Source: Actinomycetes bacterium
GTDB lineage: Bacteria; Actinomycetota; Acidimicrobiia; Acidimicrobiales; Palsa-688
Direction of reading: 5' to 3'
Assembly: GCA_021827225.1 (NCBI GenBank)
Contig: JAKAXG010000018.1
Span: 1-16,786 of the forward strand
DNA length: 16,786 nt
Numbering within the stretch: position 1 is the stretch's first letter; the number at the start of each line of letters is the position of its first letter. A program made the position numbers and the translations under genes. Positions 1 to 15,688 of this stretch are shown here, piece after piece. The notes under the pieces were generated by a model. That model saw only the letters and a list, made by a program, of their open reading frames with translations. It searched no databases and was not told the origin of the DNA.

Positions 1-753
1 CCCGGCGCGCCCTCCCGACTCCCAGTGCACGTGCCATTCCGCGACGCTGGGCCCGAAAGCACGGCTGACGTAGAAGTAGTAGATCATCCCGTTCTGGCCA
101 CCGGCGGACTTCGATCCCCTCCCACCACGGTACATCTCCCGGTCCCGCCACAGCAGCCCGGCCTCCGCCAGCCTCACCAACAGCCCTTCGGCGAGAGAAG
201 GATTGCCCGTGCTGTCATAGCCGTCCCTCACCTCCTCAGCGAGCCCCGGGTTGACCCGGTAGATGGGCAGCAGGGCCCTTTTGAGTTGGTGGGCCCTGAT
301 GGTGGCCTCGAAGATCTTCTCGGGCGACGGCGGTTCCTCGACAGGCTCCGGCTTCGGGCCGCCACCAACCTCCAGAGGGGTGGACACGGGCGTCGATACG
401 GGGACCGACGGGAGTCCAAGGGGCGGCGACGACGGGTCGCGCAGGGCGTGCAGGCGATCGGTGATCAGAGGCATGACGTCGTCTTCCCAGTCGGCGTCCA
501 GCTTGGCCCACTCCTCCAGCTGGTGGATGTCGGCCTTCCCCACCATCTCGGCGGTGATCTCCTTACCCTCGGCGTCCTGCAGACGCTGGACGACGGCGCG
601 GTTGCCGGCGCTGCGCTGCAGAGCGAGGACGCCTCCGGGGTCGCCGACAGTTCGAGGCGAATCCGGGGCGCCTGAGGGCCGTGGCCTGAACGGCTTCGAC
701 CCGGACGGCTCCTGCCGTGCTGCTGCCCTGTCGATCCTCGTCCGTGCCCCCAT
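1..753 (-). CDS. Partial protein with N-terminal LQR-AGN (eCIS-associated type) motif
   Basis: The reading frame is open from an ATG at 753 down to the left edge, giving 251 visible residues with no stop, so the C-terminus is missing. ATG 753 is the only ATG/GTG/TTG start between the upstream in-frame stop (near 845) and the coding body; a GAGAGGGG stretch lies about 10 bases before it. Residues 43-58 read LALQRSAGNRAVVQRL. From family knowledge, this short motif recurs near the N-terminus of actinobacterial proteins tied to extracellular contractile injection systems, often before a DUF4157 domain. A Pro/Ser/Thr/Val-rich linker follows (about residues 108-140). After it comes a region with predicted helices and an aromatic-rich segment (GMIYYFYVSR, residues 222-231) that I do not recognise. 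No HExxH protease motif is visible. The function is unknown; a cargo, toxin or structural accessory of a contractile injection system is an inference from the motif alone. Confidence 0.75.
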   Translation of the reverse strand, partial: MGARTRIDRAAARQEPSGSKPFRPRPSGAPDSPRTVGDPGGVLALQRSAGNRAVVQRLQDAEGKEITAEMVGKADIHQLEEWAKLDADWEDDVMPLITDRLHALRDPSSPPLGLPSVPVSTPVSTPLEVGGGPKPEPVEEPPSPEKIFEATIRAHQLKRALLPIYRVNPGLAEEVRDGYDSTGNPSLAEGLLVRLAEAGLLWRDREMYRGGRGSKSAGGQNGMIYYFYVSRAFGPSVAEWHVHWESGGRAG

Positions 754-1053: not shown

Positions 1054-1944
1054 ATGACCATCGACATCGGCCGGGTCGGCATCTGGACGTCGGCGCTGGA
1101 GGCCCAACCGGCGGACCGGGCACGCCAGGCGGCCGAGGAGCTGGAAGCCCTCGGCTTCCCGATCCTGTGGGTCAACGAGACCACTGGCCGGGACCCTTTC
1201 GTGCTGGCGACGATGCTGCTGGCATCCACGTCGAAGCTGAAGCTCGCCACCGGGATCGCCAACATCTACGCCCGCGACGCCCTGACGATGGCAGCCAGCC
1301 AGAAGACCCTGGCCGAGGCCTTCCCAGGCCGCTTCCTCCTGGGCCTGGGCGTCAGCAGCCCGGTTCTCGTCGAGAAGGTGCGCAAGCACTCCTACGGCAA
1401 GCCGCTGACCCATATGCGGGAATACCTGGAGGCTATGGACGCCGCCCCGTACCACTCGGTGCCGCCGGAGGAGAAGCCTCTGCGGGTGTTGGCTGCGCTC
1501 GGCCCGCGGATGCTCGAGTTGGCGGCGACTCATGCCGACGGCGCCCACCCCTATCTCACCACCCCCGATCACACCCGCTCGGCCCGGGAGCTCATCGGAT
1601 CCGACGTGTTGCTCGCCCCGGAGCAGATGGTGGTGCTCGAGACGGACCCGACCACGGCCCGGGACATAGCCCGGGCGTCTGTGAGCTTCTACCTGCGCGC
1701 ACCCGGGTACCTGGCGAACCTGCGCCGCATGGGTTACACCGACGACGACTGGGCGGATCCCAAGGCCCCGTCGGACCGGCTCATAGACGGGATCGTCGCG
1801 TGGGGGGACATGGAGACGATCGCCCGCCGGGTCCGCGAGCACCACGACGCAGGAGCGGACCACGTCTGCGTACAGGTCCTGGCGCCCCCTCGCGAGCTGC
1901 CGCTTCCGCAGTGGAGGGAGTTGGCGTCGGCGCTGCTCGGCTGA
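1054..1944 (+). CDS. F420-dependent LLM class oxidoreductase (TIGR03620-like)
   Basis: This 296-residue protein has the luciferase-like monooxygenase (TIM-barrel) pattern. An N-terminal strand (IGRVGIWTSALE) is followed by an ALGFPILWVNET segment, a T-SKLKLATGIANIYARD block at about residues 59-75, and LAEAFPGRFLLGLGVSSPVLVE at about 85-106. A late RRVREHHDAGADHVCVQVL segment matches the end of the barrel. The family uses reduced cofactor F420 (some relatives use FMNH2) for hydride transfer to varied substrates; the substrate here cannot be told. The length is normal for the TIGR03620 group. ATG 1054 is preceded by AGGA with about 7 bases spacing. No partner gene is adjacent; the next gene, encoding a STAS protein, starts 73 bases downstream. 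Assignment to the LLM superfamily is firm, to the subfamily probable. Confidence 0.9.
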   Translation: MTIDIGRVGIWTSALEAQPADRARQAAEELEALGFPILWVNETTGRDPFVLATMLLASTSKLKLATGIANIYARDALTMAASQKTLAEAFPGRFLLGLGVSSPVLVEKVRKHSYGKPLTHMREYLEAMDAAPYHSVPPEEKPLRVLAALGPRMLELAATHADGAHPYLTTPDHTRSARELIGSDVLLAPEQMVVLETDPTTARDIARASVSFYLRAPGYLANLRRMGYTDDDWADPKAPSDRLIDGIVAWGDMETIARRVREHHDAGADHVCVQVLAPPRELPLPQWRELASALLG

Positions 1945-2017
1945 TCCGGGTCGGTCTGTCGGAGATTCTGCGACGCCTCTCAGCCGGCACTCAGATCCGT
2001 CCGCTTGACTTCAGCGC

Positions 2018-2314
2018 GTGGAACCCACGCCGACAGACGAAGAGTGCTGGACCGTCATGGTTCAGGGCGAACTGGACATAACCAGCCGGCGGCACCTGGC
2101 GGACATGGCCGGGATTCTGGCGGGGCTGCGGGGAGGGGTGGATTTCGACCTGAGCCGGGTGAGGTTCATCGACTCCGCCGGATGGGACGCGCTGACCCAC
2201 GCCGTGCAGACGCTGGAAGCGGCCGGAATGTCGGCCCGGGTCAGCCGGCAGAGCGACGCCGTGCGGCGACTCAGGGCCCTCCTGGATGCCTCGGTTCTCG
2301 CGCCGGCGGCCTGA
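2018..2314 (+). CDS. STAS-domain anti-sigma factor antagonist-like protein
   Basis: This 98-residue protein consists of a single STAS domain. It shows GELDITSRRHL (residues 17-27), the core strand VDFDLSRVRFIDSAG (41-55), and the C-terminal helix region ending in ALLDAS. Ser53 in DSAG corresponds to the phosphorylated serine of SpoIIAA (first Ser of its DSSG), so reversible phosphorylation by an anti-sigma kinase is possible. Such proteins bind anti-sigma factors and free a sigma factor. The gene starts with GTG at 2018. No anti-sigma kinase, sigma factor or PP2C phosphatase gene is visible in the window, so its partner must be encoded elsewhere. Linkage with the upstream oxidoreductase (73-base gap) and the downstream DUF929 gene (118-base gap) is unclear. 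Confidence 0.8.
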   Translation: MEPTPTDEECWTVMVQGELDITSRRHLADMAGILAGLRGGVDFDLSRVRFIDSAGWDALTHAVQTLEAAGMSARVSRQSDAVRRLRALLDASVLAPAA

Positions 2315-2432
2315 GGCGGCCGGGGCGGAGAGCGCAGGGCCTCGGCTGACCGGCCGACCGGTCCCTTCGCGAGGCGCCTGCAGCGGGCGTCCGCAGCCAG
2401 CACCAGCGATCTAGGCGCTAATCTCTGTCGAG

Positions 2433-3425
2433 ATGGCCAGCTCGCCCCGAGCCGAGTCCGGCGGGAAGCGACCCTCCGACGGCTCCACCCCCGTCCCTCC
2501 CCGCAAGGGCACCAAAGCGGCCCGGCAGGCCGCTCGGCGGCCCGCGCCCCGCAGCGGGAGCCAGGCCCGCCAGGCGCGCCGCCGCAACCAGCGGCTGATC
2601 GCCATCGGCGCCACCGGTCTGGTCGTCATCGTGATCGCCGTGCTGGTGGCGGTGAAGCTTTCCTCAGGCTCGAGCACCAACGCCGAGGTCCGTACCGCGG
2701 TCAGCCAGAGCCAGGTGTCCCAGCTCAGTGGCATCCCGGTCTCCACCCTGGTGGAGGCGGCCCAGGCCGCCCAGTCGAGCGCGGCGAGCCCCCCCACCGC
2801 CCTGCCGGCCGGCGCCAAGCCGCTGACCAGTGCCGGCAAACCGGAGATTCTGTACATGGGCGCCGAGTACTGCCCGTATTGCGCAGCCGAGCGGTGGCCG
2901 ATGGTCATGGCCCTGTCCAAGTTCGGGACCTTCACCAATCTGCACGCCACCAAGTCCTCCTCCACGGACGTCAACGCCAACACCCCGACCTTCACCTTCG
3001 TCGGGTCCAGCTACTCCTCGCCGTATCTGGCGTTCACCCCGGTGGAGATGGAAGACAGGGCCGGTAAGCCCCTGCAGAACCCGACCGCTCAGCAGACCAC
3101 CATCCTGAGCACCTACGACGCCCCGCCCTATACCACCAGCACCGGCACCATCCCGTTCGTCTACTTGGGCGGCAAGTTCATCGTCAACGGCACGCAGTAC
3201 GACGCGGCGGCTCTGGCCGGCAAGAGCTTCAGTTCCGCCGTCAGCTACATCACCAGCGCCAACAACCCCACGTCCCGGGCGGCCGAGGCGGTGGCAGGCC
3301 ACCTGGTCGGAGCCATCTGCACCCTGACGAACAACCAGCCGGCCAACGTCTGCACCGCCGTACCGGCGTCGCTGAAGACCGGGGTGTCGTCATCCGCCAA
3401 CCAGGGGTCCAGCACCGGCGGATGA
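2433..3425 (+). CDS. DUF929 family membrane-anchored thioredoxin-fold protein
   Basis: This 330-residue protein starts with a basic, Pro/Arg/Lys-rich cytoplasmic segment (residues 1-53). One transmembrane helix follows (about 54-75), then an extracytoplasmic domain. That domain carries a thioredoxin-like CPYC motif at 147-150, in [15 protein letters not shown], and a TIPF segment with Pro241 that fits the cis-proline loop. A second cysteine pair lies at C296 and C307. This layout matches DUF929 (PF06053). The likely role is thiol-disulfide exchange on exported proteins, by analogy with DsbA-like enzymes. The VKOR gene 75 bases downstream on the same strand would reoxidise it, which supports an oxidative-folding role. 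The ATG at 2433 has only a weak ribosome binding site. Family assignment is good; the catalytic direction (oxidase versus isomerase) is inferred. Confidence 0.85.
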
Positions 3426-3500
3426 CCGGCCGGGGCGGCTGGCCCTCCGTCGGTACGCTGATCTGTCACTGAGGAACCGAAGACCGACGCCGAGGATGAC

Positions 3501-3998
3501 ATGGGGACCGACACTGCTGTAGAGGCCGTAGACGTGCCGGGCGGGATCGTTGGCCCCCGCTGGCCCTGGATTCTGGGGACGGTGCTGTCCGTTCTCGGAT
3601 TCGGCGTCTCGGCCTACCTGACCTACGAGCACTTCACCGGTTCGACCAGCCTCGCCTGCCCGGCGGTCAGCGGCGGGGTCAACTGCCTGAAGGTCACGAC
3701 GAGCCCCTGGTCGGTTCAGTTCGGCATACCGGTCGCCGTGCTCGGGCTCGTCTTCTTCGCGGTGATGGTCGGGCTGCAGTCGCCCTGGGTCTGGCACTGG
3801 CAGCACAGGGCGGTCCGGGCGGCCCGTATCGCATGGTGCCTGGTGGGGGTGGGAAACGCCATCGCCCTCATCTATGACGAACTGTTCAAGATCGACGCCA
3901 TCTGCGAATGGTGCACGTCGGTTCACATAATGACGTTCATTCTGTTCGTGTCGACGGTCTTCGGCACCATCTCCACCGCCCCGGTCCCGGAGGACTGA
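3501..3998 (+). CDS. Vitamin K epoxide reductase (VKOR) family protein
   Basis: This 165-residue integral membrane protein has four hydrophobic segments (about residues 22-41, 75-93, 108-127 and 141-158), the size of a minimal VKOR domain. The cysteines are those expected: a loop pair at C53 and C62 (LACPAVSGGVNC) and the active-site CEWC at 135-138. Bacterial VKOR takes electrons from a periplasmic or extracellular thioredoxin-fold partner and passes them to quinone, as DsbB does. The upstream DUF929 protein is the obvious partner. The ATG at 3501 follows a GAGGA stretch with about 5 bases between. The acidic C-terminal tail (PVPED) is not unusual. Confidence 0.92.
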   Translation: MGTDTAVEAVDVPGGIVGPRWPWILGTVLSVLGFGVSAYLTYEHFTGSTSLACPAVSGGVNCLKVTTSPWSVQFGIPVAVLGLVFFAVMVGLQSPWVWHWQHRAVRAARIAWCLVGVGNAIALIYDELFKIDAICEWCTSVHIMTFILFVSTVFGTISTAPVPED

Positions 3999-3999
3999 G

Positions 4000-4016
4000 C
4001 CGGGGTTCATCCCCGG
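4000..4016 (+). terminator. Short hairpin after the VKOR gene
   Basis: A perfect 6-bp inverted repeat CCGGGG/CCCCGG with a 5-base loop (TTCAT) begins two bases after the VKOR stop codon. There is no T tract after it, so termination is only a possibility. Confidence 0.3.
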
Positions 4017-4334
4017 AGGCGACGACCGCAGCCGGTCGGTAGGCACTGGACGGGCGGACAGGCAACGAGCCCGGCCCGGGCGGCGGACCCCGGGGACCGG
4101 ACTCGCTGGCGGCGGGATGTTGTGACTCGCGCGCCGTTTCGTTTCACGCTAGGAGGGGCGGGTCGCGAACCGATGACGGCGGCAACGCAATGCGATGACA
4201 GTCGGATCGACCAGGGGGGACGGCCACCGACGGCGGTAAGCGACCTTCCTGCGTAGTATCGATCCCGGCACCACGCAGTGCGGCGGGCCCTGGTCGAAGC
4301 ACTTAGCATCGGTCCCGACAAAGGAGGAGTCAGA
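4017..4334. other. Non-coding stretch before the VOC gene
   Basis: About 318 bases without a convincing gene on either strand. Frames through here lack the third-position G/C bias seen in neighbouring genes. A TAGTAT at 4254-4259 could be a -10 element for the VOC gene, but no matching -35 box is clear. The stretch ends in AAGGAGG (4321-4327), a strong ribosome binding site that fixes the GTG start at 4335. Confidence 0.5.
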
Positions 4335-4688
4335 GTGAGCGACTACGACGTGCGAATGGTGGTTCTTTCGACCGACGACCTGGAAGAGTCGATCCGGTTC
4401 TACACCGAGACCCTCGGGATGGCGCTGAAGTTCCGCGACGGCGCGCACTACGCCGCCCTCGACGGGGGGTCCATCACCGTGGCGCTGGCCACGGCGGTGG
4501 ACCATCCCATGCCGGGTAAGGTCGTCGTCGGGGTCAAGACCGCCGACGTCGACGCTGCTGCTCAGGCCATCGAGGCCAACGGCGGTGCTGTAGTCAAGGG
4601 ACCCTACGACGACGCCCACGAACGGCGGGCCGTGGTGTACGACAACAAGGGCAACGGGCTCGTCTTCTATAGTCCGCTACAGCGGTAA
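4335..4688 (+). CDS. VOC superfamily (glyoxalase/bleomycin-resistance fold) protein
   Basis: This 117-residue protein is a single vicinal-oxygen-chelate module of two beta-alpha-beta-beta-beta repeats. The first half has VRMVVLSTDDLEESIRFYTETLG and a YAALDGGSITVAL strand. The second has VVVGVKTADVDAAAQAIEANGG and ends AVVYDNKGNGLVFYSP, the usual last strand. The GTG start at 4335 is chosen because a near-perfect AAGGAGG lies 7 bases upstream; an in-frame ATG at 4278 has no such site and would add residues not seen in the family. Substrate and metal dependence cannot be told from the sequence, and members range from dioxygenases to resistance proteins. The membrane-protein gene starts 30 bases downstream and may be in the same transcript. 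Confidence 0.85.
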   Translation: MSDYDVRMVVLSTDDLEESIRFYTETLGMALKFRDGAHYAALDGGSITVALATAVDHPMPGKVVVGVKTADVDAAAQAIEANGGAVVKGPYDDAHERRAVVYDNKGNGLVFYSPLQR

Positions 4689-4718
4689 GGAGACAGGCAC
4701 CCGGGGGGGTGGGGTCGG

Positions 4719-5213
4719 ATGCGGCGCTTGTGGAGGGGCTTCGACGGGACCGGCGTCCGCACCGCGGTCGGGGCCTGCCTCCTGGCGGTGGCGGCGCTCT
4801 TCGCCTACCTGGTGCTGTCGAGCGGCGGTGGCTGGCAGTGGTTCGGCGGCCGGGCCGTGGCCGGCAGGGAAGACACCGGGACCGTCGCCTACGTCTACCG
4901 CGGGCAGCACTACGACATCGACGACCCGACGTCGTTCAGGAGCGGCCCCAGGACCGTGTGGGTGAACCCCGCCAGTCCGTCCGAGGCCACCCTGCACATC
5001 ACCGTCGCCCGGGTATCGGACTCCCTCTTCGTGGGTGTTCCCGCCGTGCTGGGATCCGCCCTCATCGCCGCCGGCCTCGTACAGAAGCACCGCCGCAGGT
5101 CGCGACCGGCTCTCGGCGGCGGGGACGGCACCGGTTACGGCCGCGGTATCGACTCGGCCACCATCGCGGGGATCCTGGCCAGCCGCCGGCGGCCCCGGCG
5201 GGCGCCGCCATGA
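4719..5213 (+). CDS. Two-TM membrane protein of unknown function (DUF3592-like layout)
   Basis: This 164-residue protein has one transmembrane helix near the N-terminus (about residues 14-34) and another at about 101-121. Between them is an extracytoplasmic domain of mostly beta character, containing GTVAYVYRGQHYDIDDP and RTVWVNPASPSEATL. A basic, Arg-rich cytoplasmic tail ends in RRRPRRAPP. The TM-beta domain-TM layout and the YVYRG-x-HYD / WVNP pattern resemble DUF3592-type proteins, but I cannot confirm the family. The ATG at 4719 follows a G-rich GGGGTGGGG site. Function is unknown. Confidence 0.7.
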   Translation: MRRLWRGFDGTGVRTAVGACLLAVAALFAYLVLSSGGGWQWFGGRAVAGREDTGTVAYVYRGQHYDIDDPTSFRSGPRTVWVNPASPSEATLHITVARVSDSLFVGVPAVLGSALIAAGLVQKHRRRSRPALGGGDGTGYGRGIDSATIAGILASRRRPRRAPP

Positions 5214-5228
5214 GCCGTGGACGGCCGC

Positions 5229-5259
5229 GACCACCCCCGGTCCGGGTCAGCCCGTGGTC
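5229..5259. terminator. Hairpin between two convergent genes
   Basis: GACCAC (5229-5234) pairs with GTGGTC (5254-5259), enclosing a smaller CCGG/CCGG pair. It lies between the converging membrane-protein and DUF1801 genes and overlaps the DUF1801 stop codon. TTGTTC follows on the plus strand, giving slight T-richness. It may serve as a shared terminator. Confidence 0.3.
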
Positions 5260-5654
5260 TTGTTCGACTGGGCCTTGTTCAGGGCCACGGCCGCTCGAAC
5301 GAGGGCTTCGAAGGCGGCGCCGTCCACCTCGTCGCTCTGGTAGATGTCGATGGCACGGCGGAGGTTGCCTCCGAGGCTGGCGTTGAACAGCCCGCGCGGA
5401 TCCTCCAGGAAGGCGCCCTTGGCGAAGGTCAGCTTGACGTGGTCCTTGTAGACCTCTCCCGTGCAGATCATGCCGCCTTCGGACCACACCGGGACGCCGG
5501 CCGGGTTGGAGGGCTTCTTCCACTTGAGCTCCTCGACCACGCCGGGGGCAGCCCGCCGGATCAGTGCCCGGAGTCTGGAGAGGGTGGCGCCCCGCCAATC
5601 GTCGAGATCGGCGAACATCGCATCGATCACCTGCGAGGGGCTCTCGTCGCTCAT
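5247..5654 (-). CDS. DUF1801 domain-containing protein
   Basis: This 135-residue protein matches the DUF1801 (YdhG-like) pattern. An N-terminal helical part (VIDAMFADLDDWRGATLSRLRALIRRAAPGVVEELKW) is followed by the strand pair VWSEGGMICTGEVYKDHVKLTF, the KGAFLEDPRGLFNASLGGNLRRAI segment, and a C-terminal helix ending in LVRAAVALNK. Family members are small, soluble and of unknown biochemical function; some relatives bind metal or resemble iron chaperones, so no specific role is claimed. The gene has its own upstream gap of 176 bases to the hemerythrin-like gene and is probably transcribed separately. Confidence 0.88.
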   Translation of the reverse strand: MSDESPSQVIDAMFADLDDWRGATLSRLRALIRRAAPGVVEELKWKKPSNPAGVPVWSEGGMICTGEVYKDHVKLTFAKGAFLEDPRGLFNASLGGNLRRAIDIYQSDEVDGAAFEALVRAAVALNKAQSNKTTG

Positions 5655-5663
5655 CGAACGAGC

Positions 5664-5678
5664 ATAGGGTTCGCCTAT
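5664..5678. promoter_or_regulatory. Small inverted repeat upstream of the DUF1801 gene
   Basis: ATAGG and CCTAT form a perfect 5-bp inverted repeat with a 5-base spacer, 10 bases upstream of the DUF1801 start. On the minus strand TATAGG could also serve as a -10 element. It may be an operator or promoter part; there is no independent support. Confidence 0.25.
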
Positions 5679-5830
5679 ACGCTGGACCAGAGCTCCTGAC
5701 GAACCCGGGCCGCGGACGACGGGTCCATCACGTGACCGCCGCCCCAGTCGTGACCCTCCCCGGTCGACGGCCGGATCGGGGCCGAAGGCCGGGGAGGCGG
5801 CGGCCCCGCCGGCAGCCGGACCGGGGGGGC

Positions 5831-6370
5831 CTACTGGCCCCGGCCGGTTATCTTGTCGGCCATCTTGTCCATGGCCGCGGTGGCGGTGCCGACCGTCTTG
5901 AGGGCGCCGGGGCTGTCAGGTGCGTTGGGGTGCGGCCTGGTCGGCGCCGCCTGCTTCGCCCGCTCGATCTTCTCGCCCATCTCCTCGCGCTCCTGAACGC
6001 TGAGCACCGCGAGCAGCTTGGGCCAGACCTGGTTCTCCTCGTAGGCGATGTGAGCGCGTCCGGCGGTCGCGAACTTGGCGACCAGCTCGTCGAACTCCCG
6101 GGAGCCGGCCTCCGCCTTGCGCAACTGATCCAGCACCTTCTTGCCCTCGTCCTCCTGGGCGAGCGCCACCTCGGCGAGGCTCTCCCCGCCTTCGACCTTC
6201 TCCTTCACCGCCGGCCAGAAGTACATCTCCTCCACCGCCTCGTGGCGGGATTCCTCCATGACGAGCTTCTCGCCGAGTGCGGCCGCGTCCGGGTTGCCCG
6301 GAACCAGGCGGATCAGCATGGACTCCACTTCTTCGTGGTCCTTGCGCAGAATTTCGAAAACATCGCTCAT
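5831..6370 (-). CDS. Hemerythrin-like (HHE) domain protein
   Basis: This 179-residue protein carries one HHE cation-binding domain. Likely iron ligands are H12 (KDHEEV), H43 and E47 (SRHEAVEEMYFWP), and H107 and E111 (RAHIAYEENQVWP). The EH pair usually found in the third helix is replaced by QED (residues 72-74), so one common ligand is not obvious. The C-terminal 45 residues (from about KQAAPTRPHP) are a flexible Pro/Thr-rich extension outside the domain. Such proteins bind a di-iron centre and have been linked to oxygen, NO or redox sensing and protection. The ATG at 6370 has a perfect AGGAGG 6 bases upstream. It lies downstream of the liv operon on the same strand but beyond a strong hairpin, so it is probably transcribed independently. 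Confidence 0.88.
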   Translation of the reverse strand: MSDVFEILRKDHEEVESMLIRLVPGNPDAAALGEKLVMEESRHEAVEEMYFWPAVKEKVEGGESLAEVALAQEDEGKKVLDQLRKAEAGSREFDELVAKFATAGRAHIAYEENQVWPKLLAVLSVQEREEMGEKIERAKQAAPTRPHPNAPDSPGALKTVGTATAAMDKMADKITGRGQ

Positions 6371-6451
6371 GGCAACCTCCTGTAGAAGTCCAGGCTCAGC
6401 CCCTACCCCTCCGCCGCCGTCCTATGCGTCCCCTCCCCCGTCGCGACGAGG

Positions 6452-6489
6452 GCCGGAGCCCGGGAGCGGCGCTGGTCCCGGGCTCCGGC
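6452..6489 (-). terminator. Strong hairpin at the end of the liv operon
   Basis: A perfect 13-bp inverted repeat (GCCGGAGCCCGGG and its complement) with a 12-base loop lies 36 bases beyond the stop codon of the substrate-binding protein gene. There is no T tract. Position and stem strength make it the likely end of the liv transcript; in actinobacteria, terminators without a U tract are often reported. Confidence 0.6.
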
Positions 6490-6524
6490 ACCTCAACGGC
6501 CGTGCGGATCGGTATCCGGGCCGC

Positions 6525-7790
6525 TCAGCCGGCTCCCGTCGCTACCTGTTGCGGGGTGACATAGGCCACCTGCTGCAGCTGGTCGGCGGTCGTGAACCCG
6601 TCCACCGCGAAACCGCTGAACGTGTTGTGGTACTGGTTGAAGTCCTCCGGTCCGGTCGCCCCCTCGTAGTTGATCTTGGTGCCCTTGTTGAGAAGGGCCA
6701 CGCAGGAGGCGTACGTGTAGCAGGCGGTACCCGGAGGGTTCGACACCTTCGTGATGTAGTTCACCCACTTGGTGGGGTCGGTGGAGTGGGCGGCGGTCAT
6801 GGCCAGAGCCGAGATGATCACCGAGTCGTACATGTTGTACGACGAGCTCAGGATGTTCCTGGTGTGGTACACGGCCTGGTAGTCGTCGAGGTAGTGCTGG
6901 TAGGCAGCCCCACCCGGCGAGCCGCCGGTCACCGAGAAGAGGTACTTGGAGGCGGCCGGCTGACCGAAGGCCTTGGCGTAGCCCGGCGAGCCGAGGACAT
7001 CCTCACCGACCCACGGAAGGTTGAGATCACCGAGCTGGCTGGCGTCCGCGAAGAGGGTGGTGGCGGTCTGCTGGTCGAACGCGCAGAACACCACATCGGG
7101 ATGGTGCGAGAACACCTCCGTCAACTCGGAGCGGTAGGAGCTCTGGTCGGGCACGATCTTCACGTTGGCGACCACCTGGCCGCCCTGGGACTCGTAGGCC
7201 TTGGTCAGAGGCTGCACCAGTCCCTGGGTGTTGGCGGAGTTGTCGAAGACGAACGCGGCGCGCTTCAGGCCCTTGTGGGCGGCGTAGTACGCCATGGCAA
7301 CCGTCTCCGCCGAGTCCGACGCCGTCGTGCGGTACACGTACTTGTAGTTCATCTGGTCCAGCTGGGTGGTGCCGCCGATCACGTAGTCGACCACGTGGTT
7401 CGGGTCGAACTGGTTGATGACGGCCATGACCGTCAGCGAGTACGGCCCGACAATGAAGTTGGGGTGGCTCAGCAGCAGTTTGCGCAGGGCGGGGACGGCG
7501 TCTGCCTCGTCACCGGCGTCGTCCGCGCTGACGGACTTCAGCATCTTGCCCATGACCCCGCCGTTGTGATTCACGTCGTAGACGGCGGCGTTGTCACCGT
7601 GAACCGCCCAGCTGGACAGGAACGCCTTCGTTCCTGTGAAGGGCAGTAACTGTCCGAAGGTTATCGTCCCCCCGCTGCTGTGGGCGCCTCCGCTGGCCGC
7701 TGACCTGGTGGAGCCGCACGCGGCGGCGGCCAGGGCCACCGCCGCGCCGACCGCGGCCACCTTCACTGTCGATACTCGTTTCCCGGTCAC
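6525..7790 (-). CDS. ABC transporter substrate-binding lipoprotein, branched-chain amino acid type
   Basis: This 421-residue exported protein has a lipoprotein signal peptide: basic MTGKRVSTVK, hydrophobic VAAVGAAVALAAAA, and the lipobox cysteine at C25. The mature part is a type I periplasmic-binding fold (Peripla_BP_6/LivJ class). It begins ITFGQLLPFTGTKAF, contains NHNGGVMGKMLKSVSADDAGDE, and LLLSHPNFIVGPYSL at the first hinge strand. It is the last gene of the liv operon, 33 bases after livF. It captures the solute outside the membrane and hands it to LivHM. The family binds branched-chain amino acids, urea, amides or aromatic acids, so the ligand cannot be named. The start is GTG at 7790, with purine-rich AGAAGAA just before it. 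Confidence 0.92.
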   Translation of the reverse strand: MTGKRVSTVKVAAVGAAVALAAAACGSTRSAASGGAHSSGGTITFGQLLPFTGTKAFLSSWAVHGDNAAVYDVNHNGGVMGKMLKSVSADDAGDEADAVPALRKLLLSHPNFIVGPYSLTVMAVINQFDPNHVVDYVIGGTTQLDQMNYKYVYRTTASDSAETVAMAYYAAHKGLKRAAFVFDNSANTQGLVQPLTKAYESQGGQVVANVKIVPDQSSYRSELTEVFSHHPDVVFCAFDQQTATTLFADASQLGDLNLPWVGEDVLGSPGYAKAFGQPAASKYLFSVTGGSPGGAAYQHYLDDYQAVYHTRNILSSSYNMYDSVIISALAMTAAHSTDPTKWVNYITKVSNPPGTACYTYASCVALLNKGTKINYEGATGPEDFNQYHNTFSGFAVDGFTTADQLQQVAYVTPQQVATGAG

Positions 7791-7823
7791 TTCTTCTGTT
7801 CCCTCCCTTTCTATTTGCTTCCG

Positions 7824-8585
7824 CTAGTTGCCGACCCGACCGTCGGCGCCGACGGCTGGAGCGCCTGCCCGGTCGAGTTGCTCGTCCCGGCCGAGGAAGA
7901 TCCCGGCCAGGTCCAGGGCCGCCACCTCGGCTGCGGGTCCCTGGACGTGGTTGGCGCCTGCCACCAGCACGTACACATAGGCGGCGTTCGCCAGCGCCCG
8001 GTCCACGTTCTGCTCCACCACCAGCACCCCGGTGCCGGTAGCGGCGATCCGGGCGACCTGCGACCACACCACGTCGGTGTAAGCCGGCGACAGGCCGGCG
8101 GTCGGTTCGTCCAGAACGATCACCCTCGGGTCGAGCATGAGGGCGCGGGCCATGGCCAGCATGTTCTGCTGACCGCCGGAGAGGGCACCGGCCCGCTTGC
8201 GGGCCGCGACCTGGAGGTCCGGGAAGATGTCCAGGACCTCACCGACGCGCTCGCGCACGCCCTGGGTCCGGGTGAACGCCCCCATCTCCAGGTTCTCGAC
8301 CACCGACAGGGAGGCGAACACGTTGCGGTTCTGAGGGACGTAGGCCAGGCCCTCCCTCACCACGAGATGAGCCGGCAGCCCGGAGATGTCGGTGTCGCCG
8401 ACGTAGACACGGCCGGCTTGCTTCTTCACCACGCCGGCGATGGACTTGGCGAAGGTGGACTTCCCGGCGCCGTTGGGGCCGACGATGGCCGCGACCTGGC
8501 CGCCGTCCACGGTCACCGACACGTCCTGGATTATCGGCACCCGGCTGTAGCCCGCCGTCACCTTCTCAGCGTGCAGCGCTCTCAC
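7824..8585 (-). CDS. livF: Branched-chain amino acid-type ABC transporter ATPase LivF
   Basis: This 253-residue ABC ATPase has Walker A GPNGAGKST (36-44), Q-loop Gln85 in YVPQNRNVF, signature LSGGQ (135-139), Walker B VIVLDEP (155-161) and the VEQN switch segment (190-193) typical of LivF rather than LivG. It energises uptake together with LivG. The gene starts with GTG 8585, with GGGAGG about 8 bases upstream, and overlaps the end of livG by 20 bases, which implies translational coupling. The C-terminal 20 residues (after GRDEQLDR) are an Ala/Gly/Val-rich extension slightly longer than usual. Confidence 0.93.
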   Translation of the reverse strand: MRALHAEKVTAGYSRVPIIQDVSVTVDGGQVAAIVGPNGAGKSTFAKSIAGVVKKQAGRVYVGDTDISGLPAHLVVREGLAYVPQNRNVFASLSVVENLEMGAFTRTQGVRERVGEVLDIFPDLQVAARKRAGALSGGQQNMLAMARALMLDPRVIVLDEPTAGLSPAYTDVVWSQVARIAATGTGVLVVEQNVDRALANAAYVYVLVAGANHVQGPAAEVAALDLAGIFLGRDEQLDRAGAPAVGADGRVGN

Positions 8586-9396
8586 TCAACGCACCTCCCA
8601 GGTAGGCTCGGACGACTTCCGGATTGGCTCTCATGTCGGCCATGGACCCCGACGCCAGCGCCTTGCCCTCGGCCATGACCACCACGTGCTGGCAGATGCG
8701 CTCGACCACGTTGAGGTTGTGCTCCACCATGAGCACGGTCACCCCGTCGTCGCGCAGCCGGGCGATGTGGTCGCCGATCTGGTCGATCAGGGCCGGGTTG
8801 ATACCCGCCATGGGCTCGTCGAGGAGCAGCACCCGCGGTTCGGCCATCACCGCCCGGGCCAGCTCCAGCAGGCGTTTCTGCCCTCCGCTCAGCTCCCCCG
8901 CCAGGTTGTCGCGCTTGGCGGCCAGGCCGAAGGTCTCCAGGATCTCCATGGCCCGGGCCAGGTTGGCCCGTTCCTCGGCCTGCACCTTCCCCGGGCGGAA
9001 GAAGACGTTGAGCAGCGACTCGCCGGCCTGATCCACGGGCGTGGCCATCAGGTTCTCGAGCACGGTCAGGCGGGCGTACTCGCGCGAGAGCTGGAAGGTG
9101 CGGATCAGCCCGGTGCGGGCGACCCGGTCGGCCGACCACCCGGTGACGTCGGTGCCGCCCACCCGCACCCGGCCGGAATCGGGGCGCAGGGCCCCGGAGA
9201 TCAGGTTCACGGCGGTGCTCTTGCCGGCACCGTTGGGACCGATCAGGGCGCAGATGATGCCGGCGGGCACGGAGAAGCTGGCCCCCCGGACGGCCTGCAC
9301 CCCGTCGAAGCCCTTCACCAGGTCCTGGACCTCCACGGCCGTCCCCGCATCCCCGCGGCTGTCGGCCGGGCGGGACGCCACCGGAACCCCCGCCAT
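8566..9396 (-). CDS. livG: Branched-chain amino acid-type ABC transporter ATPase LivG
   Basis: This 276-residue ABC ATPase has Walker A GPNGAGKST (53-61), Q-loop Gln102 in RTFQLSREY, signature LSGGQ (169-173), Walker B VLLLDEP (189-195) and switch His226 in VEHNLNVV. The inserted VFFRPGKVQAEERANL region and the C-terminal PEVVRAYLGG are characteristic of LivG. ATG 9396 is chosen because its A is shared with the livM stop (TGATG), giving a tight coupled junction. A longer in-frame start at 9501 would lie inside livM and adds a Pro/Gly-rich stretch not seen in the family. Confidence 0.93.
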   Translation of the reverse strand: MAGVPVASRPADSRGDAGTAVEVQDLVKGFDGVQAVRGASFSVPAGIICALIGPNGAGKSTAVNLISGALRPDSGRVRVGGTDVTGWSADRVARTGLIRTFQLSREYARLTVLENLMATPVDQAGESLLNVFFRPGKVQAEERANLARAMEILETFGLAAKRDNLAGELSGGQKRLLELARAVMAEPRVLLLDEPMAGINPALIDQIGDHIARLRDDGVTVLMVEHNLNVVERICQHVVVMAEGKALASGSMADMRANPEVVRAYLGGALSESAAR

Positions 9397-10397
9397 CACG
9401 CCGCCTCCTCCAGGGCGGGGCTCGTGCGACCCGGCAGGGTCGAGATGAGCCGGGCGAACGAGGTCTTGCGCTCCGGAACCAGACCCTGGGGGCGGAACCA
9501 CAAGGTGACGATCAGCAGGACTCCGATGATCATGTTGTCGATCTCCGATATAAGGGCAGGGTTGCTGCCAAGTTGGGGCAGGAGCTTGGGCAGCTCCACG
9601 AAGATCACCGGCACGGCCAGGCTGCCGATCACCGCCCCGGTGTTGTTACCGGAACCACCGATGATGACGGCGGCGAAGATGACGAACGTCTCCGGTGTGG
9701 TCCAGGCGCTCGGGTTGAACGCGCTGACGAAGTACATGAGCAGGCCGCCGCCGATGCCGGCGTAGAACGAACCGATGAGCAGGGAGGTCATCTGGTAGCG
9801 GAACGGGTTCTTGCCCGTCGAGCGCACCACGTCGGGGTCGTCGCGGATGGCCCGGAAGGTGCGGTCCAGCGGCGACCGGGTGATGCGGCTCATCACCCAC
9901 CACATCAGAAGGGCCAGCACCCCGGCGAAGGCCGTGAACACGTAGGTGAAGCTGTTGGCGTTCAGGTTGAAGGCCCCGGCGAAGGGCTGGGGGACGCTGT
10001 TGAGCCCGTCGGAACCGTCGAACAGCTGGGTGTAGTTGGTGATGACGTCGTAGAGGACGATCGACAGTGAGATCATGACGATGGCCAGGTAGTCGCTGCG
10101 CAGACGCCGGAACGCCACCAACCCGATGACCAGGCCGAGGACACATGACGCCAACCCGCCCAACACGAGGGGGACCGGGAACGGCAGGTGCCAGCCGAAG
10201 ATGTAACTCTCGCCGCTACCGGAGAGTGGCCGTCCGAGGCTGAAGACGCCGGTGATGTAGGCGCCGACAGCCACGAACGCGATGTAGGCGAAGTTCAGTA
10301 TGCCGGTACGACCGAACTGGATGTTCAGGCCCCAGTTCAAGATGGCGTACAGGAAGAAGAAGAACAGCAGTGTGATGATGTAATTGAGGATTGCCAT
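9396..10397 (-). CDS. livM: Branched-chain amino acid-type ABC transporter permease LivM
   Basis: This 333-residue integral membrane protein has many hydrophobic helices, beginning ILNYIITLLFFFFLYAILNW. It contains the LivM hallmarks NIQFGRTGILNFAYIAFVAVGAY, the FRRLRSDYLAIVMISLS segment, FRAIRDDPDVVRSTGKNPFRYQM (the coupling region that contacts the ATPases) and VIIGGSGNNTGAVIGS. It pairs with LivH to form the membrane channel. The gene lies 9 bases after livH and shares one base with livG. Confidence 0.93.
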   Translation of the reverse strand: MAILNYIITLLFFFFLYAILNWGLNIQFGRTGILNFAYIAFVAVGAYITGVFSLGRPLSGSGESYIFGWHLPFPVPLVLGGLASCVLGLVIGLVAFRRLRSDYLAIVMISLSIVLYDVITNYTQLFDGSDGLNSVPQPFAGAFNLNANSFTYVFTAFAGVLALLMWWVMSRITRSPLDRTFRAIRDDPDVVRSTGKNPFRYQMTSLLIGSFYAGIGGGLLMYFVSAFNPSAWTTPETFVIFAAVIIGGSGNNTGAVIGSLAVPVIFVELPKLLPQLGSNPALISEIDNMIIGVLLIVTLWFRPQGLVPERKTSFARLISTLPGRTSPALEEAA

Positions 10398-10406
10398 GGC
10401 GGGGCC

Positions 10407-11282
10407 TCAGTGCTTTCCGGCGGCCGCCAGGATCCCCTGGGGTCGCAGCAACAGGACGATTACGAGGAGCGCGAAGGCCACATCGAGCTTGTAGGCGGAG
10501 TTGATGACCACGGCCGATATCTCGGTGGCCAGGCCGATCACCACTGCGCCGAGCATGGCCCCGTACGGCTTGCCGATCCCGCCCAGGATCACGGCGGCGA
10601 AGATGACGAACAGAAAGGTCTCACCGAGAGCCGGTGTGATGCTGGCCACGTTGATGGCCAGGACGGTTCCCGACAAGCCGGCCAGGGTCCCGGTGAGGAA
10701 CCACGTGAGGGTGGTGACCCGGTCCACCGCGATGCCGCACACCGATGCCAGGGACCGATCGTCGGACATGGCCCGCATGGCCTTTCCCAGGCGCGTCCTG
10801 GTCAGCAGCAGGTGGATGGCCGCCATGGCCGCCACCCCGATGCCCATGATGACCAGTTGGTCGGCCGTCCACAGGAACGGGCCGGCGTGGAGAGGCTGCT
10901 GCCGACCCACCGCGTACTGCTTGTAGTTGGGTCCCCATACCGCCTGGATGAAGTTGAGCAGGATCAGCGACACACCGAAGGTGACGATGAGCACGAAGAA
11001 CAGGTTGCTGAAGCGCCTGACAAAGGGGTCGAGCAGGTAGCGGCCGAGCAGCACACCGCAGAGCCCGACCACGAACGCAGCGACCACCATGGACAACCAG
11101 ATGTCAAGGTGGGCTTTGGCGTTCATGACCCAGGCGATGTAGGCGCCCAGCGTCATGAGATCGCCGTAGGCGAAGTTGACGAAGTTGGTGACCCCGAACT
11201 GCAGGGTCAGCCCCATCGACGCCAGAGCCAGGATGGATGCGGTCACCAGACCGAAACCCACGGACAGCTCGAACGATTGCAA
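10407..11282 (-). CDS. livH: Branched-chain amino acid-type ABC transporter permease LivH
   Basis: As annotated this is 291 residues with about eight membrane helices. It shows the LivH signatures GLTLQFGVTNFVNFAYGDLMTLGAY, MRAMSDDRSLASVCGIAVDRVTTLTWFLTG and FAAVILGGIGKPYGAMLGA. It is the first gene of the operon. I choose the TTG at 11282 because a strong GGGGGAGGAG lies immediately upstream and the protein then begins QSFELSVGFGLVTASIL, as other LivH proteins do. An in-frame GTG at 11363 would add 27 Thr/Ser/Gly/Pro-rich residues and lacks a ribosome binding site, but it cannot be fully excluded. Confidence 0.9.
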   Translation of the reverse strand: MQSFELSVGFGLVTASILALASMGLTLQFGVTNFVNFAYGDLMTLGAYIAWVMNAKAHLDIWLSMVVAAFVVGLCGVLLGRYLLDPFVRRFSNLFFVLIVTFGVSLILLNFIQAVWGPNYKQYAVGRQQPLHAGPFLWTADQLVIMGIGVAAMAAIHLLLTRTRLGKAMRAMSDDRSLASVCGIAVDRVTTLTWFLTGTLAGLSGTVLAINVASITPALGETFLFVIFAAVILGGIGKPYGAMLGAVVIGLATEISAVVINSAYKLDVAFALLVIVLLLRPQGILAAAGKH

Positions 11283-11497
11283 ACTCCTCCCCCTTGTGTC
11301 TATTCCTTGGCCTGTCCCGGCAGGCACCGGTCCATTTGAGGGGGATGCGGTGGCGGATGTCACGGTTAATGACTTAAAACCTGCCGAAATTGCATTCTGC
11401 GACTTCTGCTCGTTCTGCTCAGGTCCTGGTCCAAACCCACGGTTATGCGGTCGGTTAGAGTGGGGCCCGTCGCCGCGTCCGGGGGGAGGGCTGGAAT
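11283..11497. promoter_or_regulatory. Divergent regulatory region between livH and the sensor kinase
   Basis: This 215-base gap must hold promoters for both the liv operon (leftward) and the two-component genes (rightward). It contains an unusually A/T-rich island (about 11364-11396), an inverted repeat GCCTG/CAGGC (11310-11325, 6-base spacer) and three tandem 9-bp repeats (11395-11421). A ribosome binding site GGGGGGAGGG sits 7 bases before the kinase ATG. Exact -10 and -35 boxes cannot be assigned; TTAGAG just after 11450 is a weak candidate for the kinase promoter. Confidence 0.65.
11395..11421. repeat. Three tandem 9-bp repeats with TTCTGC core
   Basis: TTCTGC occurs at 11395, 11404 and 11413, an exact 9-base period (TTCTGCGAC, TTCTGCTCG, TTCTGCTCA). 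The repeats lie beside the A/T-rich island in the divergent promoter region, so they are candidate binding sites for the adjacent response regulator. Confidence 0.55.
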
Positions 11498-13198
11498 ATG
11501 CGGTGGTTGCGCAACCACCGGAATCTGTCGAATCAGGTGGCGCTGGCCCAGGTGGCGGTGCTGGTCGTCGTGCTCGCCGCGGCCTTCATCATCTCCGCCC
11601 GGCAGGTGGACCAGATGGTCAAGCAGCAGTACGAGAAGCGGGCCCTGGCGGTCGCCACTTCAGTGGCCGCCATGCCTCAGGTGGCAGAGCAGGTATCGAC
11701 GCTGCCCCCTGGCGGACCGGTACAGGCAGAGGCCTCTGCGGTCATGGCCCAGACCGGTGCTGCCTACGTGGTGATCACCAACGACGCCGGCATCCGCTAC
11801 TCGCACCCCGACCCGCGCCTGATCGGCAAGTCGGTGGTCTACGACGATCCGGAGCCGGTGAGCAGCGAACCGTTCCGCACCGGGCGACCCTGGACCGGTG
11901 TTCAGGAAGGAACCCTCGGCTTCACGGCGCGGGGCAAGGCGCCCATCCTGATGGGGCAGCAGGTGGTCGGCGAGGTGTCGGTCGGGTTCCCGGTCGAGGC
12001 GGTGTCGGACCGGTTCCTGGAGGCGCTGCCGTGGATGGCCGGCTTCGTCGCCGCCGCCCTGGCCTTCGGCATCGGCGCGGCGGTGCTGGTCGCCCGACGG
12101 CTCAAGCGTCAGACGCTCGGCCTGGAGCTTCGCGACATCACCGCCCTGGTGCAGGAGCGCGAAGCCCTCCTCCACGGCATAAGGGACGGGGTCGTCGGCT
12201 ACGACAACCAGGGCCGGATCCTCTTCGCCAATGACTCGGCGCGGGACCTGCTGGACCTGCCACCCACGTTCCTCGGCTCCCAGGCCTCCGACCTGTTCCC
12301 GGCCGGCCGGTTCGCCGACGCCGTCACCGGTGCGCTGACCGGTAGCAACCTCACCGTGGTCTACGGTGACCGGATCCTCGTGGTCAACCGCAGACCTTTG
12401 CGGGTCGATCACCGGCGCCAGGTCGGATGGGTGATCACGCTGCAGGACCGCACCGAATCCGAGACCCTGCTGCGGGAGCTGGAGCGGGTGACCGGGATGA
12501 CCGACACGCTGAGGGCACAAGCCCATGAGTTCGCCAACCAGATGCACACCTTCGTTGGACTCGTGGAGTTGGGAGAGCACGAGGAGGCGATCCGCTACGC
12601 CACCGACCGGTCCACCTATCGCCACCGGGAGGCGGACCGGATGCTCGATCAGCTGCTGGACACCAGGTTGGTGGCGCTGCTCATGGCCAAGACCGCCCTG
12701 GCCGAGGAGCGGGGTATCGCCCTGACGCTGACGGCGGGCAGCCGGATCGCCGGGGCGTGCACCCACATCGGCGACACCCTCACGGTCGTCGGCAACCTGG
12801 TGGACAACGCCATCGACGCCGCCGCCGGCAGCCCGGACGCCAGCGTCGAGGTACACATGGTCTCGCGGGGAGACACCCTCACGGTGACGGTGCGCGACAG
12901 CGGTCCGGGGGTGCCCCGGGACCTGCGCAACGAGGTGTTCCGGGAGGGGTTCACGACCAAGCCCGACCGCGGCGGCTCCGGGAGGGGACTCGGCCTGGCC
13001 ATCGTCCGCCAGCTGGCCGAGCGTCAGGGAGGGCTGGTCGAAACCGGGGACGGCGAGGGCGGAGAGTTCACCGCCGTGCTCCCGGGTTGCGTGGCGCCTC
13101 CTCCGCCGACCGACCCGTCCGCCCGGGCCGGCTGGCAGCCGGCGACCCCTCGGGCCGTCGTGGGTGCGCCCTCCCGCTCGGGGAAGCAAGACCCGTGA
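11498..13198 (+). CDS. CitA/DcuS-type sensor histidine kinase
   Basis: This 566-residue membrane kinase has TM1 at about 14-34 and an extracytoplasmic single-Cache sensor at about 35-178. The sensor carries the CitA/DcuS pattern YSHPDPRLIGK (101-111) and EGTLGFTARGKAPI. TM2 is at about 180-199 and a cytoplasmic PAS domain at about 215-320. The phospho-acceptor His343 lies in RAQAHEFANQMHTF, the CitA/DcuS H-box. The ATPase domain has N-box GNLVDNAID (432-440), DSGPGVP (467-473) and GRGLGL (495-500). Known relatives sense citrate, C4-dicarboxylates or similar carboxylates; the ligand here is unknown. A Pro-rich 36-residue tail after the usual end (LPG, 530) is unusual. The stop codon overlaps the response-regulator start. 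It faces the liv operon divergently, suggesting control of that transporter. The ATG has a strong G-rich ribosome binding site. Confidence 0.93.
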   Translation: MRWLRNHRNLSNQVALAQVAVLVVVLAAAFIISARQVDQMVKQQYEKRALAVATSVAAMPQVAEQVSTLPPGGPVQAEASAVMAQTGAAYVVITNDAGIRYSHPDPRLIGKSVVYDDPEPVSSEPFRTGRPWTGVQEGTLGFTARGKAPILMGQQVVGEVSVGFPVEAVSDRFLEALPWMAGFVAAALAFGIGAAVLVARRLKRQTLGLELRDITALVQEREALLHGIRDGVVGYDNQGRILFANDSARDLLDLPPTFLGSQASDLFPAGRFADAVTGALTGSNLTVVYGDRILVVNRRPLRVDHRRQVGWVITLQDRTESETLLRELERVTGMTDTLRAQAHEFANQMHTFVGLVELGEHEEAIRYATDRSTYRHREADRMLDQLLDTRLVALLMAKTALAEERGIALTLTAGSRIAGACTHIGDTLTVVGNLVDNAIDAAAGSPDASVEVHMVSRGDTLTVTVRDSGPGVPRDLRNEVFREGFTTKPDRGGSGRGLGLAIVRQLAERQGGLVETGDGEGGEFTAVLPGCVAPPPPTDPSARAGWQPATPRAVVGAPSRSGKQDP

Positions 13199-13893
13199 TC
13201 CGCACGGTGGTGGTGGAGGACGACTTCCGGGTGGCCAGGATCCACACCGCCTACGTCCAGAAGGTGCCCGGCTTCGAGGTGGTCGGCGAGGCTCACACGG
13301 CAGCCGCCGCCATCGAGATGGTCGACACCTACCGGCCGGATCTGCTGCTCCTGGACCTGTACCTCCCCGACGAGCACGGCCTCGACCTGGCGGCCAGGCT
13401 TCGTCACGAGGACCATCCGCCGGTCGATGTCATCGTCATCACTGCGGCCAAGGACATCGAGTCGGTGCGGGCCGCTCTGCGCCACGGGGCTCTGCACTAC
13501 ATCCTGAAGCCTTTCACCTTCGACCAATTCCGGGACAAGCTCGCGTCGTACGCCACCATGCGATCCCGCCTGGGCGACGCCGGGGAGGCCGACCAGGCCC
13601 GCGTCGACCGGGTGTTCGGAGCCCTGCGGGCGGAACCGGTGAGCCCCACCCCGAAGGGCCGTTCGCCGCTGACCCTCGAGAAGGTCGAAGGCGTGCTGTC
13701 CGCTTCCCCCGATGGGGTGACCGCCCTGGACGTGGCCGAGAGCACCGGGATGAGCCGGGCCACAGCCCAGCGCTACCTCTCGTACCTGGAGACGACCGGC
13801 AGGGTGTCGGTGCACCTGCGCTACGGGAGCGCAGGACGCCCGGAGCACATCTACCGGGTGGGACCGGGAATGCCTCCGTCAGCGAGCCTTTGA
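13195..13893 (+). CDS. CitB/DcuR-type response regulator
   Basis: This 232-residue regulator has an N-terminal receiver domain with acidic pocket E8-D9-D10, phospho-acceptor Asp54 (LLLLDLYLPDEHGLDL), Thr83 and Lys105 (ILKPF). A C-terminal helix-turn-helix follows at about 176-203 (VTALDVAESTGMSRATAQRYLSYLE), typical of the CitB/DcuR family. The start is the GTG at 13195, which overlaps the kinase stop by four bases (GTGA), so the pair is translationally coupled. The probable target is the divergent liv promoter region. Its 3' end overlaps the convergent HD-GYP gene by 15 bases. Confidence 0.93.
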   Translation: MIRTVVVEDDFRVARIHTAYVQKVPGFEVVGEAHTAAAAIEMVDTYRPDLLLLDLYLPDEHGLDLAARLRHEDHPPVDVIVITAAKDIESVRAALRHGALHYILKPFTFDQFRDKLASYATMRSRLGDAGEADQARVDRVFGALRAEPVSPTPKGRSPLTLEKVEGVLSASPDGVTALDVAESTGMSRATAQRYLSYLETTGRVSVHLRYGSAGRPEHIYRVGPGMPPSASL

Positions 13894-15522: not shown

Positions 15523-15656
15523 TACTGCTCCCTCGCAACACCCCGGCAAAACGGGGGTCTTCCCAAGATCGGCGGCTCCGCAGCATCCTGAAGCAGGTCT
15601 TCTTGGCGTTCCGGTCAGTCCGCTTTGCCGAGAATGGAGGGCCGGGCCCTCGGCCC

Positions 15657-15688
15657 CGCTGGCGTCTCCCCAGGGAGACAGCTCAGCG
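15657..15688 (-). terminator. Hairpin at the end of the AraC-type gene
   Basis: GTCTCCC (15664-15670) and GGGAGAC (15673-15679) are perfect complements. Outer arms CGCTG and CAGCG (15657-15661, 15684-15688) can also pair. The structure overlaps the stop codon of the AraC-type gene and lies before the HD-GYP leader, so it may terminate or attenuate read-through. The inner loop is only two bases, so at least one pair must open. Confidence 0.4.

Follow-up and report, generated by a model that had tools for sequence, protein, structure and literature searches.

A putative contractile injection system cargo with an undescribed C-terminal domain encoded at a contig edge of an Actinomycetes bacterium

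The product of the gene that enters the analysed DNA from the left is probably a modular cargo of a contractile injection system, with an undescribed and possibly toxic C-terminal domain; its delivery, target and activity are what we infer. The window, which is the whole stretch of 16,786 nucleotides analysed here, contains the edge open reading frame (ORF) on the minus strand at 1..753, and the 251 amino acids encoded there comprise a leader with a motif, a linker and a C-terminal domain. Contractile-injection cargo is the best reading because a related protein, P0013, joins the same C-terminal domain to the eCIS_core (DUF4157) domain, and the cargo is probably undescribed because a cargo-type motif is joined to a domain that matched no family in the catalogues searched. 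The sequence-only reading had put the gene forward as a candidate undescribed cargo without DUF4157, and it stands as such a candidate.

The ORF begins with ATG at 753 and continues past the left window edge. A database protein, P0001, is identical to it over the common part and supplies the missing C-terminus, giving a full protein of 295 aa if 753 is the start (69 + 226, P0001 included). P0001 is annotated from M70 (226 aa), which would place the motif outside the protein, and AAGGAG is located 12 nt ahead of this ATG (nt 546); besides, codons 1-42 taken alone have no clear coding signal (GC by codon position 0.69/0.74/0.74). Nevertheless, it seems highly improbable that translation begins at M70 and the upstream motif is not made. 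The segment LQDAEGKEIT... (residues 59-106, minus strand 436..579; model confidence mostly 64-72 for the modelled part, from M70 onward) is common to the closest relatives. Upstream of M70, the pattern LxDxxGKEIT is present with the frame kept in P0002-P0005, P0007 and P0009, and the relatives stay in frame through GKEIT and further upstream. The third-position GC content over codons 1-69 is 0.80, and the 28.5-bit score of the motif model described below would hardly be expected of an untranslated stretch. The only in-frame start codon (ATG/GTG/TTG) ahead of the motif is ATG 753, the next one being ATG 546 (codon 70), and the lengths of P0002-P0009 (277-312 aa) are near the 295 aa counted from 753. 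Since the frame just upstream of M70 is conserved in relatives, ATG 753 was taken as the likelier start.

As the sequence-only reading had stated, the minus strand at 580-627 encodes LALQRSAGNRAVVQRL near the N-terminus of the edge ORF (residues 43-58), a motif common to eCIS_core (DUF4157) proteins of Streptomyces. The preceding leader (residues 1-42, minus strand 628..753) is Arg-rich, hydrophilic and disorder-prone, with a Kyte-Doolittle sum of -42.5 over the first 50 residues and a charge of +2 over residues 6-21. Its hydrophilicity, charge and disorder index are similar to those of nine Streptomyces motif proteins, and of 13 window genes used as controls, those for the DUF929 and HD proteins encode an equally hydrophilic N-terminus. 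A motif HMM made from 13 Streptomyces proteins, with the window excluded and locus L021 left out, gave the window peptide 28.5 bits (E 4.5e-6 over 84,623 peptides), the model being partly circular, because three of the 13 sequences (L011-L013) were originally found using the window's own leader. The top score among 200 codon-block shuffles of the window was 12.1 bits. The motif Q is residue 46 in the window protein, is found at 30-42 in seven proteins with annotated starts (L011-L014, L018, L022 and L023) and at 12-47 in four others where the frame start was chosen by the analyst (L015, L017, L019 and L020); L016 and L024 were read from stop to stop. Searching viral_contigs with the motif as a DNA pattern gave one locus, at about residue 1,060 of a 1,521-aa protein (ALQRLAGNYAVV), which was set aside as chance or unrelated.

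The link of the motif with DUF4157, which the sequence-only reading had put forward, was borne out in the plasmids searched, where the loci examined are all from Streptomyces. A tblastn search of 72,556 plasmid records with the window leader (E <= 10) returned 34 records, the best match (E = 0.5) being to DUF4157 proteins of Streptomyces zaomyceticus. The motif fits 20 of these records, namely 16 of S. clavuligerus (one identical match), three of S. zaomyceticus and one of Streptomyces sp. NBC_01431, of which one record each was examined (H5, H25 and H30). The other 14 matches, without a motif fit, are to other proteins or unannotated; the two examined, H23 and H28, are due to chance. A 30-residue query from L011 matched 40 places in 31 plasmid records, every one from Streptomyces. 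Fourteen loci were examined, comprising the best place in 13 of the 31 records together with L013 from the window-leader search; the 18 other best places (15 in S. clavuligerus, two in S. zaomyceticus, one in S. californicus) show the same or a similar match. PF13699 (eCIS_core) was detected behind the N-terminal motif in 11 of the 14 loci, L016, L022 and L024 among them. The exceptions are L021, which is a broken frame of 105 aa, L023, and L013, where a PARP-like match reached 18.6 bits against a cut-off of 26.7. The L013 gene (L013:14965-16467; CP065237.1, S. clavuligerus pF1D25A) is annotated DUF4157 despite having no PF13699 match, and the L023 gene (L023:2911-4287; NZ_CP108701.1) encodes a 459-aa motif protein in which the part behind the motif matches no Pfam family.

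The window protein thus resembles the Streptomyces eCIS_core proteins in its N-terminal motif of the LQxxxGNAAVVxxL type after a basic, disorder-prone leader, but, unlike the PF13699 proteins with the same leader, it has no eCIS_core domain. The C-terminal domains of the Streptomyces motif proteins are varied; on the plasmids they include a DNA/RNA endonuclease (L012 and L024) and Stv (L020), and the rest are unnamed. The match to the motif model, the presence of PF13699 in 11 of 14 loci and the likeness of leader properties argue for a cargo, as does the occurrence of the motif without PF13699 in L023 and in L013, the latter on the replicon pF1D25A that also bears an eCIS-type cluster.

A sheath gene is present on four of the 14 plasmid records with motif loci, at distances, obtained by subtraction of coordinates on plasmid records only, of ~9.5 kb (L016), ~26 kb (L017), ~126 kb (L012) and ~366 kb (L013, on the same linear plasmid, pF1D25A). 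The L013 record contains a second motif gene, annotated DUF4157 and located 9.5 kb from the sheath, near which DUF4255, ATP-binding, sheath, phage tail, LysM, VgrG, gp25 and baseplate genes are found. Since this second gene stands near sheath and baseplate genes, the motif is tied by position to an eCIS-type cluster on the L013 record, and distant motif genes exist. The connection with eCIS is thereby sustained for S. clavuligerus pF1D25A, where a motif-bearing gene annotated DUF4157 adjoins an annotated eCIS-type cluster, which is a further argument for a cargo.

Genes recognised to the right of the edge ORF (1054..16621) belong to metabolism, transport and signalling, and encode a luciferase-like monooxygenase, DUF929 and VKOR proteins, and DUF1801, hemerythrin, DcuS-like histidine kinase, HD-domain and AraC proteins. 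The DUF929 gene followed by the VKOR-family gene (2433-3998) is likely a thiol-oxidation pair. A branched-chain amino-acid ABC operon (binding protein, two ATPases and two permeases) occupies 6525-13198, and the DcuS/MalK-like sensor kinase adjoins it on the opposite strand. Scanning of ORFs in the 16 kb to the right (by Pfam for 27 of the 72 ORFs of the window, the edge ORF included) brought up none of the tail genes within about 20 kb that the sequence-only reading had named as support. This counts against a cargo, and it favours the view, which we consider unlikely, that the gene encodes a stand-alone protein, for instance a toxin or enzyme acting in its own cell or otherwise exported, which gained the leader by recombination and has no contractile delivery. 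It also differs from the pattern of eCIS-associated toxins (EATs), 88% of which are encoded no more than ten genes away from the operon according to Danov 2024 (PMC11297309). Missing tail neighbours alone would not refute cargo status, because motif loci stand 9.5-366 kb from a sheath, beyond 20 kb in three of the four sheath-bearing cases; the motif gene 366 kb from the sheath sits on a replicon with an eCIS-type cluster, which argues against a stand-alone protein.

No Pfam family was detected in the 251 aa at E <= 0.01, PF13699/DUF4157 included, and PF13699 was found in none of the 11 members of set A1 (P0001 included), whose Pfam scan gave only two unrelated families, in one member each (E 0.15 and 0.18). 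Inspection by eye showed no HExxH zinc motif in the 251 aa of the window or in P0001. The remark that no DUF4157 HExxH is visible therefore holds for both. DUF4157 occurs in 36% of EATs according to an excerpt of Danov 2024 (PMC11297309), so most EATs would lack it. Like the window protein, EATs are modular and have a hydrophilic leader. The same excerpt describes an aromatic residue among the first eight as commoner in EATs; the window leader has none there, which counts against a cargo, and two of the nine Streptomyces motif proteins have one. It further states that the signal peptide of PVC and Afp cargo yielded no specific conserved sequence, while signal peptides of lineage I were grouped by alignment in the part of Evans and Waterfield 2024 concerned with them. 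Putative toxins with an N-terminal DUF4157 are mentioned in a section of Geller 2021 (PMC8213781), and PMC8651086 contains DUF4157 together with the words 'conserved motif' and 'actinobacteri'. Searches of the main texts of open-licence papers with LQRSAGN, EWHVHW and AGNAAV together with 'contractile' found no paper.

The C-terminal domain begins at about residue 144 and is cut by the window edge (minus strand 1..324), its last 44 aa being available from P0001 only. Three protein searches yielded 17 proteins, and 16 of them, P0001 included, share this domain. Alignment A5 (16 rows) keeps Y-R, G-G-x-N-G-M-x-Y, E-W-H-V-H-W and P-G-W-K without variation, together with single columns of K, G, W and V; in the window, the conserved blocks GGQNGMIY and EWHVHWE are encoded on the minus strand at 79..102 and 19..39. 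P0013, a JGI protein of 449 aa, has the eCIS_core domain at residues 141-217 (E 5.8e-31), followed by the window-type C-terminal domain, which is 43% identical to that of P0001 over 118 columns. It differs from the window protein by its full eCIS_core domain and by having no motif leader, and the fusion of the same domain to eCIS_core speaks against a stand-alone protein. P0014, with no Pfam family, aligns with P0013 from residue 245 on (54% over 203 columns). A search with P0014 for a second leader type gave 48 records (47 Burkholderia and one Mycetohabitans; E 3-7 among the 20 listed) and was uninformative.

The C-terminal domain thus occurs behind different leaders. P0017 and P0011, a protein of the Solibacteraceae genome SbA3, are 57% identical over 176 columns of the leader and middle part and then diverge, and this module swapping supports the assignment to cargo. 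The C-terminus of P0017 is another unnamed domain and a second candidate payload. A mix-and-match domain layout is typical of polymorphic cargo. The motif HMM did not find the motif in P0002-P0008, P0010, P0012, P0013 and P0014, and the N-termini of P0002-P0008 differ; its absence from these close relatives P0002-P0008 counts against a cargo and favours a stand-alone protein. On the other side, P0009 (15.4 bits) and P0016 (12.9 bits) carry LQR(K/R)YGN(Q/R)(T/A)VQR and P0015 carries RRAGNTALVQR, as read by eye; these motif-like N-termini argue against a stand-alone protein, though weakly, the score of P0016 being scarcely above that of the top shuffle.

The region after the motif, described earlier as unrecognised, includes the C-terminal domain, for which neither Pfam, NCBIfam and PHROGs nor the solved folds offered a clear match. 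The NCBIfam search with 12 members of set A3 (E <= 10) gave only three unrelated weak families (best E 0.038), and PHROGs gave no family for the 10 proteins submitted. Relatives of the domain were absent from 26 viral_contigs stretches, and matches were found neither in plasmids (queries P0005 and P0016), nor in phages (P0009), nor in PDB sequences (A1).

When genome_contigs was scanned with the window protein, a search that detects close relatives only, one relative appeared, on contig C167 of the Solibacteraceae metagenome-assembled genome SbA3. Contig C78 of the same genome encodes an eCIS, with a sheath, with gp19 tube, Phage_base_V, gp25 and Baseplate_J above their cut-offs and CIS_tube just below its own, and with four PF13699 matches. 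The presence of both a relative and, on another contig, an eCIS in SbA3 is consistent with a cargo. This co-occurrence is weak support because in the phylum sample of 396 genomes one had the C-terminal family and 48 had PF13699; being confined to one genome, it also counts against a cargo. Contig C167, the home of the relative, has no match to the sheath or PF13699, which favours a stand-alone protein. An AAA ATPase ORF (L001:8235-9842) appears to open ~19 bp past the SbA3 relative and may be a loading partner. On C78, an eCIS_core domain is split across two adjoining matches (G001:C78:12890-13109), so the gene may be broken or misassembled.

The papers on contractile injection systems (CIS) of Streptomyces used here are presumably those known as "Nagakubo-type". 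In the part consulted of these papers (PMC13277306, PMC11126660), Sle1 of Streptomyces lividans provides a close parallel, a CIS cargo without DUF4157, as proposed for the window protein (PMC13277306). Unlike the window protein, Sle1 has a long coiled-coil N-terminus, comes from a gene that directly precedes the sheath gene, and binds Sle2, a DUF4157 protein that may link Sle1 to the particle. Together with the suggestion in the excerpt of Danov 2024 (PMC11297309) that DUF4157 is possibly a chaperone, in cis or in trans, this would suit an accessory protein of the injection system (an adaptor, chaperone or structural plug) instead of an effector. Such a role appears rather improbable, as the window protein has no DUF4157 and its C-terminal domain is conserved behind different leaders, like cargo domains.

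In AlphaFold2 models of P0001 (pLDDT 76.6) and P0010 (pLDDT 75.7), helices precede a beta meander, after which comes a last helix, and EWHVHWE falls within a strand. It follows from the alternation of residues that E, H, H and E of this block would lie on one face of the strand, making it a candidate active-site strand. Searches of solved folds with both models gave weak unrelated matches only, which does not mark the fold as either new or old, and the P0010 model had no viral structural match at E <= 0.001; the lack of a clear fold match counts against a cargo. The function of the domain is a guess, because the models match no solved fold well. Our tentative choice, with a rather low chance of being right, would be an enzyme that works inside the recipient cell, an RNase-like toxin being the likeliest, on account of the predicted helices followed by three strands, the conserved E-x-H-x-H-x-E strand and the conserved Y-R, Q-N and K. 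The topology and conserved polar residues make an RNase-like protein preferable. A nuclease with what we take to be the WHH motif of HNH nucleases was considered for EWHVHWE and set aside, since this block has no His after it and lies in a predicted strand.

According to the preferred interpretation as a contractile-injection cargo, the disordered basic leader ending in LALQRSAGNRAVVQRL would address the protein to the particle, probably via a loading ATPase or a DUF4157 protein acting in trans, and the conserved C-terminal domain of ~110-150 aa, joined through a linker, would be the working part. It is conceivable, albeit doubtful, that L-Q-x-x-x-G-N-x-A-V serves actinobacterial-type contractile injection systems as a conserved address tag, functioning whether or not DUF4157 is present and also from genes distant from the tail cluster, the EWHVHWE domain being one undescribed payload. 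Contractile injection cargo is usually sought beside tail genes or via DUF4157. The C-terminal domain would add a payload family with no Pfam, NCBIfam or PHROG match among the members scanned. A sequence tag would make the loading signal testable, and one that works far from the cluster and marks cargo without either feature would expose a scattered cargo repertoire and open whole repertoires to a simple profile search.
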